Shown in pieces: positions 18,391 to 21,151 of a stretch of 64,000 nucleotides of DNA. The stretch spans positions 6,925,501 to 6,989,500 of the forward strand of contig NZ_CP130630.1 of the NCBI RefSeq assembly GCF_030551255.1, given 5' to 3'. Each line of letters opens with the position of its first letter. Positions within the stretch are counted from its first letter, which is position 1. The notes beneath the pieces were generated by a model. The model was not told where the DNA came from. It made no database searches and was given only the letters and a program-made list of their open reading frames with translations. The translations under genes were made by a program, and so were the position numbers. Origin of the DNA: Streptomyces sp. NL15-2K. GTDB lineage: Bacteria > Actinomycetota > Actinomycetes > Streptomycetales > Streptomycetaceae.

Positions 18391-19495
18391 CGAACCCCTG
18401 GTCCTGGGGATCGAGACCTCCTGCGACGAGACCGGCGTCGGCATCGTCCGGGGCACCACCCTGCTGGCCGACGCGGTCGCGTCCAGCGTCGACGAGCACG
18501 CCCGTTTCGGCGGGGTCGTGCCGGAGGTGGCCAGCAGGGCGCACCTCGAAGCGATGGTGCCGACCATCGACCGCGCGCTGAAGGAGGCGGGGGTGAGCGC
18601 GCGGGACCTGGACGGCATCGCGGTCACCGCCGGTCCGGGCCTCGCCGGGGCCCTGCTGGTCGGCGTCTCGGCGGCGAAGGCGTACGCCTATGCGCTGGGC
18701 AAGCCGCTGTACGGCGTCAACCACCTCGCCTCCCACATCTGCGTGGACCAGTTGGAGCACGGCGCCCTGCCCGAGCCGACGATGGCGCTGCTGGTGTCCG
18801 GCGGGCACTCGTCGCTGCTGCTGTCGTCGGACATCACCTCCGACGTACGGCCGATGGGCGCGACGATCGACGACGCGGCGGGGGAGGCCTTCGACAAGAT
18901 CGCCCGCGTCCTGAACCTGGGCTTCCCCGGCGGGCCGGTCATCGACAGGTACGCGACGGAGGGCGACCCCTCGGCCATCAAGTTCCCGCGCGGTCTGACC
19001 GGCCCGCGCGACCCGGCGTACGACTTCTCCTTCTCCGGCCTGAAGACGTCCGTGGCCCGCTGGATCGAGGCGAAGCGGGCGGCGGGGGAGGAGGTGCCGG
19101 TGCGTGATGTGGCGGCCTCCTTCCAGGAGGCGGTCGTGGACGTGCTGACCCGGAAGGCCGTACGGGCCTGCAAGGACGAGGGCGTCGACCACCTGATGAT
19201 CGGCGGTGGCGTGGCCGCCAACTCGCGGCTGCGGGCCCTGGCTCAGGAGCGCTGCGAGGCGGCCGGGCTCCGGTTGCGGGTGCCGCGGCCCAAGCTGTGC
19301 ACGGACAACGGGGCGATGGTGGCGGCGTTGGGGGCGGAGATGGTGGCAAGGAACCGAACGCCGTCATCGTGGGATCTTTCGGCGGATTCCTCGCTTCTTG
19401 TGACGGATACGCATGTGCCAGGGCACCATCATCATGACCACGTGCATGAGGTCAGCAAGGAGAACCTGTACTCGTCACCCGCTCCCCGTCTCTAG
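18383..19495 (+). CDS. tsaD: tRNA N6-adenosine threonylcarbamoyltransferase
   Basis: Catalytic subunit of t6A synthesis. 370 aa from ATG 18383. The metal-binding motif HLASHICVD is present near residue 113, together with GIETSCDETGVG at the N-terminus and LVSGGHSSLLL. The C-terminus contains a His-rich tail (HVPGHHHHDHVHEVSKENLYS); the final SPAPRL plus TAG stop appear to come from the inserted IscB element, so the native stop lay a few codons earlier. The enzyme should be unaffected because the core ends before the His-rich tail. Overlaps rimI. Confidence 0.96.
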   Translation: MADEPLVLGIETSCDETGVGIVRGTTLLADAVASSVDEHARFGGVVPEVASRAHLEAMVPTIDRALKEAGVSARDLDGIAVTAGPGLAGALLVGVSAAKAYAYALGKPLYGVNHLASHICVDQLEHGALPEPTMALLVSGGHSSLLLSSDITSDVRPMGATIDDAAGEAFDKIARVLNLGFPGGPVIDRYATEGDPSAIKFPRGLTGPRDPAYDFSFSGLKTSVARWIEAKRAAGEEVPVRDVAASFQEAVVDVLTRKAVRACKDEGVDHLMIGGGVAANSRLRALAQERCEAAGLRLRVPRPKLCTDNGAMVAALGAEMVARNRTPSSWDLSADSSLLVTDTHVPGHHHHDHVHEVSKENLYSSPAPRL

Positions 19496-19828
19496 GGACG
19501 GGTCTGTCTGCTGAAGGCAGGACGGCCCGTGGGTGACCAGACCCAGCCATCTCCAGAAGGAGGTGACCAGATGGCTACGTTTCACGTAGGGCAGCAGACC
19601 CACCAAGTTGTGCTTCCTCAGCAGCTTGCTCTGGAATTCGCGTCAGCAGACACCCCCGGGAGCAGGGACGAAACGGGGCGCGAAGACCACACCGACGACG
19701 TGGTACCCGGCGTGGAACATGGTCGAGGGGAGACCGGGAAGGGCGTCACCGAGTCCGACCGGCGTCACCCCGGCACTTCGTTGCCGGGAGAGGGCCTTGC
19801 GGCCCGTCTGTCTCATCTGCCTCATCCT
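19476..19828 (+). ncRNA. Presumed omega-RNA of the IscB system
   Basis: About 350 bases between the end of the tsaD sequence and the first domain of IscB. IscB loci encode their guide RNA directly upstream of the nuclease gene, and this is the only space for it. The 5' part can fold: ACGGG near 19499 pairs with CCCGT near 19530 around a smaller CTGC/GCAG hairpin. The stretch is open in the iscB frame but the translation is not protein-like and precedes the family's normal N-terminus. The guide would be read from tsaD 3' sequence just outside the left junction. Exact ends are not determinable here. Confidence 0.55.
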
Positions 19829-21151
19829 GTGGTGTTCGTCCTGGACCGGCATGGGCAGCCATTGCAGCCGACCAGCCCCGCCAGGGCACGCAAGCTGCTG
19901 AAAGCGGGCCGGGCGGTTGTTGCCCGGCACACCCCGTTCGTCATCCGCCTCAAGGACCGTACTGTTGCCGAATCGGTAGTGAGTGGCGTGGAGTTGGGCA
20001 TCGACCCTGGCAGTAAATACACGGGCCTCGCGGTGTTCGCAGCTGACGGGGATGGTGTACGCCGGGGCCTGTATCACGTCGAACTCCAGCACAGGGGCAG
20101 TCAGATCCGCGACAAGCTCACCGCGCGTGCCGCCCATCGGCGCGGGCGGCGATCCCGCAACCTGCGCTACCGCGCACCCCGTTTCAACAACCGCGTACGA
20201 CCTGGAGGATGGCTCGCGCCGTCTCTGCGCCACCGGGTGGAGACCACCATGACATGGACCACCCGGCTGGCCCGCTGGGCACCGGTCACCGCCGTCCATG
20301 TCGAGTTGGCCGCTTTCGACACCCAGCTGCTGACCTCCGAAGACACATTAGTGGGGGTCGAGTACCAGCACGGCACCCTCGCGGGCACCGAAGTACGCGA
20401 ATACCTCCTCGCCAAGTGGCAGCGGAGATGCGCCTACTGCGGTGCCTACGGCGTGCCGCTGAACATCGACCACATCCACCCGCGAAGCCGCGGCGGCTCC
20501 GACCGCATCAGTAACCTCACTCTGGCCTGCATCCCCTGCAACCACGCCAAAGGTAGCTCCTCCATCGAGGAATTCCTGAGGGACAAGCCCACCCTTGCTG
20601 CGCGCATCCGCGCCCAGGCCAAGAAGCCGTTGCGAGACGCTGCCGCGGTCAATGCCACACGCTGGACTCTCTGCCGCGCCCTGGAATCCGCTTTTCCCTG
20701 TGTGCGTATCGCGACGGGCGGACGTACGAAGTGGAACAGACAGCGTGTGGGTCTTTCCAAGACGCACACGCTGGACGCCCTGTGTGTTGGAGTTCTGAAC
20801 GCGGTCACCGTGCATCCGCGCAGGGTCTTGATCGTTACTGCCGGTGGGCGTGGCCGGTATCGGCGAACCGACCTCGATCGCCATGGCTTTCCGCGCAAGA
20901 TCAACCCACGATCCAAGGCCGTCTTCGGCTTCCAAACCGGTGACTATGCACGCGCTGTGATTCCCACCGGACGGTATGCAGGGACACACGTGGGCCGCGT
21001 CGCGGTGCGTACCAGCGGCAGGTTCAACATGCGTACCCGACACAGCCTCATCCAGGGTATCCATCATCGCCATGTGCGACTTCTTCAACGGGCCGACGGT
21101 TACGCCTACGCGACGCGGGAGGAGGCGGGAGTTCGATGGCTGTCGCGCTGA
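19829..21151 (+). CDS. iscB: IscB RNA-guided endonuclease (Cas9 ancestor family)
   Basis: About 440 aa, normal for IscB with an HNH domain. Domains in order: PLMP domain at residues 1-50 (VFVLDRHGQPLQPTSPARAR); RuvC-I with Asp59 (ELGIDPGSKYTGLAV); Arg-rich bridge helix near 103-122 (HRRGRRSRNLRYRAPRFNNR); RuvC-II with Glu159 (VHVELAAFD); HNH with CAYCG and DHIHPRSRGGSD plus CIPCNHAKG near 200-241; RuvC-III THTLDALCVG near 312. All catalytic residues expected are present, so it is likely active. Start chosen at GTG 19829 (or 19832) by domain boundary. No TnpA is nearby. The stop lies 15 bases inside the next gene, and the iscB 3' end supplies that gene's GGAGG ribosome site. Confidence 0.92.
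   Translation: MVFVLDRHGQPLQPTSPARARKLLKAGRAVVARHTPFVIRLKDRTVAESVVSGVELGIDPGSKYTGLAVFAADGDGVRRGLYHVELQHRGSQIRDKLTARAAHRRGRRSRNLRYRAPRFNNRVRPGGWLAPSLRHRVETTMTWTTRLARWAPVTAVHVELAAFDTQLLTSEDTLVGVEYQHGTLAGTEVREYLLAKWQRRCAYCGAYGVPLNIDHIHPRSRGGSDRISNLTLACIPCNHAKGSSSIEEFLRDKPTLAARIRAQAKKPLRDAAAVNATRWTLCRALESAFPCVRIATGGRTKWNRQRVGLSKTHTLDALCVGVLNAVTVHPRRVLIVTAGGRGRYRRTDLDRHGFPRKINPRSKAVFGFQTGDYARAVIPTGRYAGTHVGRVAVRTSGRFNMRTRHSLIQGIHHRHVRLLQRADGYAYATREEAGVRWLSR

Follow-up and report, generated by a model that had tools for sequence, protein, structure and literature searches.

Background

The closest described systems are the IscB/OMEGA systems of ISC (IS200/IS605-like) elements, for example OgeuIscB, which combine a RuvC-HNH nuclease carrying an RRXRR bridge with a 5' omega-RNA and a 3' adjacent motif. 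In characterised IscB systems the guide is taken from the left flank of the element. A HEARO RNA and its ORF have also been described, and Weinberg and colleagues reportedly gave, in 2009, ATGA or GTGA as the sites at which HEARO integrates. TnpB, whose guide comes from its right end, acts in peel-paste-and-cut retention: the empty donor site is cut and repair then brings the element back. Homing endonucleases and group II introns occupy fixed sites in core genes and would cut those alleles of a conserved gene that lack them. TldR factors, which are derived from TnpB, have lost their nuclease residues.

In this paper we examine an IscB locus of Streptomyces sp. NL15-2K within a stretch of 64,000 nucleotides, referred to here as the window, for which an initial annotation had proposed a complete IscB system at the 3' end of tsaD acting as a homing or retention device. 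The RNA of this locus is a HEARO and the motif of its site is the one given above; compared with other IscB/OMEGA systems only the site is special, since it is the overlap of the tsaD stop with the next start and the motif is the start codon of the neighbour. The proposed role resembles that of TnpB, but the guide would come from the left and there is no transposase in cis. The likeness to homing endonucleases and group II introns lies in the cutting of an empty core-gene allele, whereas specificity here would reside in an exchangeable RNA flank and relatives occupy many genes.

Results and discussion

The inserted element and its ends

Sequence comparison confirmed positions 19474-21135 as one IscB/omega-RNA insertion (HEARO; ISC/HEARO-type) without a transposase of its own (Table 1). 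In 26 of 29 same-genus tsaD loci (L043-L071, from a search of 61 genomes), ATGA or GTGA comes immediately after the end of tsaD, with the conserved LMWEA of the neighbour behind it; L065 and L068 have no RTGA at that point, and no usable match was obtained for L067. In the RTGA of these empty sites the stop of tsaD overlaps the start codon of the neighbour and, by this alignment, the element is placed exactly before it. The possibility that the block is ancestral and not an insertion was rejected, given that the exact junction exists without the element in these relatives. The initial annotation had placed IscB between tsaD and its usual neighbour and had called for an alignment of empty sites, which bears it out; its ends (19476..21151) did not stand, as the left junction is at 19473/19474 (from the HEARO start and the empty sites) and the right junction at 21135/21136 (from the empty sites and S. 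canus).

The same insertion is present in S. canus V4I20 (L008), where the right junction reads GTGA and also provides the iscB stop codon. In the window, the iscB frame runs through the ATGG flank and its stop, a TGA at 21149-21151, lies beyond the right end of the element. Upstream of its GTG start this frame also stays open, without support for an earlier start.

The protein matched the NCBIfam model NF040563 for IscB at 429 bits (cut-off 175) and the Pfam families RRXRR (PF14239, 227 bits) and HNH (PF01844), and its best matches among solved structures (PDB) were IscBs. RuvC-I D59, RuvC-II E159, HNH D214/H215 and RuvC-III H313/D316, numbered with residue 1 at window position 19829, are all kept in an alignment of 63 proteins (that of the window and 62 relatives); we take these to be the positions known as catalytic in IscB. 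The locus therefore has the features of the family, namely an RRXRR/RuvC protein with inserted HNH, a family-model match, the catalytic residues and an omega-RNA upstream, and the protein is as complete as had been claimed. By analogy with characterised members, it would be expected to cleave DNA under RNA guidance.

A covariance-model search matched HEARO across the whole model on the forward strand at 71.3 bits, below the Rfam gathering score of 83, which is why a default Rfam scan missed it; the omega-RNA predicted in front of iscB is thus a full-length match. In 19 omega-RNAs, 35 of 55 consensus pairs had both partners changed in one or more of the sequences, and the terminal helix that opens the element alternates between GTCAC and GTAAC, its partner strand changing to match.

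Two further claims, that the element supplies the last six codons and stop of tsaD and that it brings a ribosome site for the neighbour, also hold, the second as a prediction: the last 20 nt of the element would form an anti-SD duplex of -15.8 kcal/mol, against a shuffle mean of -11.3, with 3% of shuffles as favourable.

Table 1. Features at the tsaD locus (window positions)
Feature	Position	Strand	Basis and remarks
tsaD	18383..19495	+	TIGR03723, 419.6 bits; empty-site comparison; C-terminal extension SPAPRL and stop TAG from element
Predicted guide, last 16 nt of tsaD flank before omega-RNA scaffold	19458..19473	+	Lies left of HEARO start; role by analogy; a guide longer than 16 nt would begin left of 19458
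Inserted IscB element, 1662 bp	19474..21135	+	HEARO start, empty sites, S. canus L008
omega-RNA scaffold, HEARO RF02033	19474..19734	+	E 8.1e-14; covariation
TAG ending tsaD, near omega-RNA 5' end	19493..19495	+	Reading frame
iscB	19829..21151	+	Conserved start GTG 19829; stop in flanking DNA
G-rich element right end, ribosome-site-like, before neighbour's ATG	21117..21131	+	Anti-SD duplex
Right-end flanking motif	21136..21139	+	ATGG here; GTGA in S. canus; RTGA in 26/29 empty sites
Usual neighbour of tsaD, small conserved protein	21136..21408	+	No Pfam match

Elsewhere in the window there are an IS5-like transposase in two frames (22205-23079; DUF4096, DDE_Tnp_1), an ISL3 transposase of 437 aa (25977-27290) and, between genes upstream of tsaD (16010-17205), scattered repeats of 20-61 nt in direct and inverted orientation.

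Predicted guide, target and proposed retention at tsaD

Should the guide come from the left flank, as it does in the characterised systems, it would be the 3' end of tsaD, as had been suggested; the position just left of the HEARO start agrees with this. A target of 17 nt plus RTGA, allowing at most two mismatches over all 21 positions, was found in 302 of 392 same-genus genomes, counting hits that were not each confirmed as tsaD and of which one is the occupied locus; a reversed control pattern matched in three genomes among the matches listed. The only match in the occupied genome fits the occupied left junction, with one mismatch in the motif, so that this genome has no other close target. 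The geometry is that of a target in the left flank with a 3' adjacent motif in the empty site, and the fixed motif that the initial annotation had sought is RTGA. IscB motifs reported elsewhere are NTAAA, NWRRN and NWRGNA, and RTGA fits the NWRRN class (available part of PMC13180657).

RNA-guided retention at the junction of tsaD and its neighbour is, we think, the probable explanation of the locus as a whole. An operon transcript through tsaD would supply the guide joined to the scaffold, and IscB carrying it would cut element-free tsaD alleles that have RTGA beside the target, after which repair from the occupied copy would restore the element. The occupied locus would escape because the element begins with GTCA, which replaces RTGA beside the target. 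Because the tsaD stop is replaced from within the element, which would also give the neighbour a ribosome site, both genes could still be expressed. Cleavage, guide processing and restoration of the element are all argued here from analogy. The drift of the flanking motif to ATGG makes active retention in this strain uncertain, and a precisely emptied site in this strain might escape cutting; the initial annotation's suggestion of a homing or retention device gains no support from this right junction, which does not read RTGA. Also counting against the retention model, the tsaD site was found occupied in two strains only, the element has no TnpA of its own, three of the 29 relatives have no RTGA or no usable match at the tsaD end, and the neighbour is more diverged (76%) than tsaD or the element.

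Identity between the window and S. canus is 89.4% for tsaD, 89.2% for the element, 94.0% for its omega-RNA part and 76.1% for the neighbour. Both iscB and tsaD have a dS of 0.393, with dN/dS of 0.159 and 0.087, respectively. The equal dS and the low dN/dS of iscB show vertical inheritance under purifying selection, and the comparison fits a single insertion in the common ancestor of the two strains, apparently followed by long purifying selection. Such an element might instead be a relic that landed once in this ancestor and is now passive, its retention function lost in the present strain. The ATGG flank, the loss of the iscB stop to read-through, the lack of TnpA in cis and the state of the other IscB copies in the genome (one with the RuvC-III aspartate changed to tyrosine, two partial) would all suit a relic, but a dN/dS of 0.16 maintained at a dS of 0.39, an omega-RNA more conserved than the rest of the element and a full set of catalytic residues make this reading unlikely.

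Purifying selection on an operon resident would also be expected of a domesticated regulator, a ribonucleoprotein binding the junction and controlling expression as TldR does. This we consider highly improbable, for the nuclease residues are intact, unlike those of TldR, the element is at tsaD in two strains only and the single own-genome match to target and motif is the occupied left junction. A TldR-like RNA-guided repressor was rejected on the presence of the nuclease residues.

Relatives and mobility

IscB was found in 43 of 392 same-genus genomes, the present one included (E up to 1e-30), and among the 59 left ends listed tsaD is the site of two only, those of the window and L008. Members of the family sit at many other genes, so that it is not specific to tsaD and a system aimed at tsaD as such is not supported; a tsaD-specific homing element was rejected for the same reason.

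No TnpA was found within the element or the 64-kb window, as had been noted, and the single match to Y1_Tnp in this genome (E up to 0.001) is found 4.4 Mb from it, at C1:2501201. TnpA is usually absent from IscB elements (PMC9755519, in the part available). An autonomous ISC or IS200-IS605 transposon was rejected, as the element lacks the Y1 TnpA (IscA). Y1_Tnp was present in 29 of 43 IscB-bearing genomes and 110 of 349 others (odds ratio 4.5, p = 6.8e-6; counted by hand, with relatedness and genome size uncontrolled), an association compatible with help in trans.

The second IscB of the genome (L002, C1:2169477-2170811), in which the RuvC-III aspartate has become tyrosine, precedes a start which, in the related L086, is that of a YceG/MltG gene; the other own-genome matches, L003 and L004, are partial. 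One genome has IscB ahead of ruvX (L103), and others have it ahead of an mltG-like gene (L086/L002); ruvX and mltG are usually neighbours. In Streptomyces sp. AP-93 there are at least six copies at different places (L010, L012, L013, L015, L018, L034), suggesting recent mobility. Relatives of the window IscB also occur in 90 phage records, 18 of them named Streptomyces; all are below 60% identity and six cover at least 80% of the window protein.

A second Streptomyces lineage of IscB (17 loci: L090, L091, L093-L100, L104, L105, L109, L110, L114, L115, L117) has left flanks that mostly end in the ribosome-site-like AAGGGAG or AAAGGAG. In four scanned copies (L093, L097, L100, L105) the Rfam sRNA Ms_IGR-5 follows closely downstream, and L093 faces a putative citrate synthase-like gene, named from reading the sequence. 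Group B loci were rejected as self-targeting regulators, since the best same-strand guide match within about 400 nt downstream had at least four mismatches in the 16 nearest positions (17 loci).

Right ends and translation starts

An end anchor, TCCACGAAAG (at most two mismatches), was present in 15 of 35 scanned loci, and in all 15 it was followed within 12 nt by RTGA, although the flanks differ. These loci represent 13 downstream genes, for which the chance of this is about 3e-15. L011 has an extra stretch resembling the anchor within its downstream gene, and this one is not followed by RTGA. At 11 of the 13 genes the RTGA is the start of an open frame of 80 codons or more, the exceptions being L018 (12) and L079 (42).

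Empty sites add tsaD, nrdA/nrdB (CAGTA/ATGACC) and L087 (ACCAAGGG/ATGACG, with matching left flank) to this set and support the anchored L103 (ruvX) and L012; for L013 and L076 the fit is rough. L010 is a counter-example, as its three empty sites read GTAG after the left flank, with no gene start; GTAG fits NWRR. The testable Streptomyces sites are then 17 (the 13 anchored genes plus tsaD, nrdB, L087 and L010, added on empty sites), of which 16, all except L010, have RTGA at the right end. Loci with unusable right ends (L016, L020, L082), those of the same appearance but with neither anchor nor empty site (L074, L077/L083, L084, L085, L086/L002, L113, L019) and an S. canus plasmid copy are outside this count. 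Several of the 17 sites are starts of conserved genes, nrdB and ruvX among them. Pfam supports the starts of PNPOx (L012), RuvX (L103) and the ribonucleotide reductase small chain (L017) within the 17 sites, and of exonuclease VII small subunit (L019) and YceG/MltG (L086) outside them.

We lean slightly towards the view that many IscB/HEARO elements specialise in translation starts: the RTGA would be the downstream start, the 5' end of the element would supply or restore the upstream stop, its 3' end would bring a ribosome site and host transcription would make the guide. Such an RTGA start would often overlap the upstream stop, and an element beginning with GTAA would give TAA exactly in place of the lost TGA. 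The annotated stop of the upstream gene is the element's own TAA in two cases, an S. canus plasmid gene and Deinococcus parA; on the Deinococcus plasmid parB follows the element with an ATGA start. IscB lies between parA and parB on plasmids of two phyla, Deinococcus and Trichormus (L148 and L160).

The pattern may, quite conceivably though with somewhat lower probability, be a by-product, in that RTGA-like motifs are targeted and gene-breaking insertions elsewhere are purged. Frames of at least 80 codons open from the right-end motif at 14 of the 17 Streptomyces sites, compared with 394 of 1170 RTGA in 100 kb of an incompletely annotated Streptomyces plasmid (p = 5e-5), which argues against a by-product, as does the low share of annotated starts (39/312) when the 39 among these 1170 are taken together with the 273 others that lie outside annotated genes. 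The L010 empty sites point the other way, and so do some sites beyond Streptomyces. There, 11 loci were examined with our own frame calls: RTGA shortly past the iscB end begins an open frame of 77 codons or more in L021, L026, L027, L028 and L032, L029 has GTGA with a shorter frame, and four Ktedonobacter copies share a GTGA where no gene starts (L030 is in neither group).

A plasmid set, for which existing annotation was used, comprised 26 loci out of 83 matching records. After setting aside L153, which repeats L142, and nine loci lacking a same-strand gene start within 155 nt of iscB, a limit chosen after the first plasmid set was seen, 16 distinct loci remained. The annotated start is RTGA in 11 of these (7/10 in the first set, 4/6 in the second), compared with 17 of the 45 remaining starts in these stretches (p = 0.04); inclusion of L166, at 170 nt, gives 11/17 and p = 0.09. 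The excess is modest, and RTGA starts are common anyway, both of which favour a by-product.

A family-wide enrichment of ribosome sites was rejected, being modest only: the median was -6.35 kcal/mol over 28 right ends, not all of them from separate sites, and -5.2 kcal/mol over 757 RTGA of the window. For the element of the window itself the ribosome site is good.

Conclusions

The element in the window is a real IscB insertion whose limits are well defined. It is an ordinary member of its family, found at an instructive position. With defined ends, empty sites and a second strain, it is a natural test case for what service IscB provides to its element.

The RTGA motif itself is probably known, given the ATGA and GTGA sites reportedly described for HEARO; the new part, and the one worth following, is the start-codon pattern. 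We know of no statement that these HEARO sites are start codons. A literature search found no report of IscB insertion at gene starts and no paper naming both HEARO and start codon as whole words, within a reach that did not extend to key HEARO/IscB papers (Weinberg 2009, Altae-Tran 2021).

If it holds, the wider pattern suggests how transcription of an RNA can be secured when its guide is located beyond the element, because residence at a gene start would guarantee guide RNA by host transcription. It may also explain why hosts tolerate insertions inside core-gene operons, and it would predict native motifs and guides from sequence alone.
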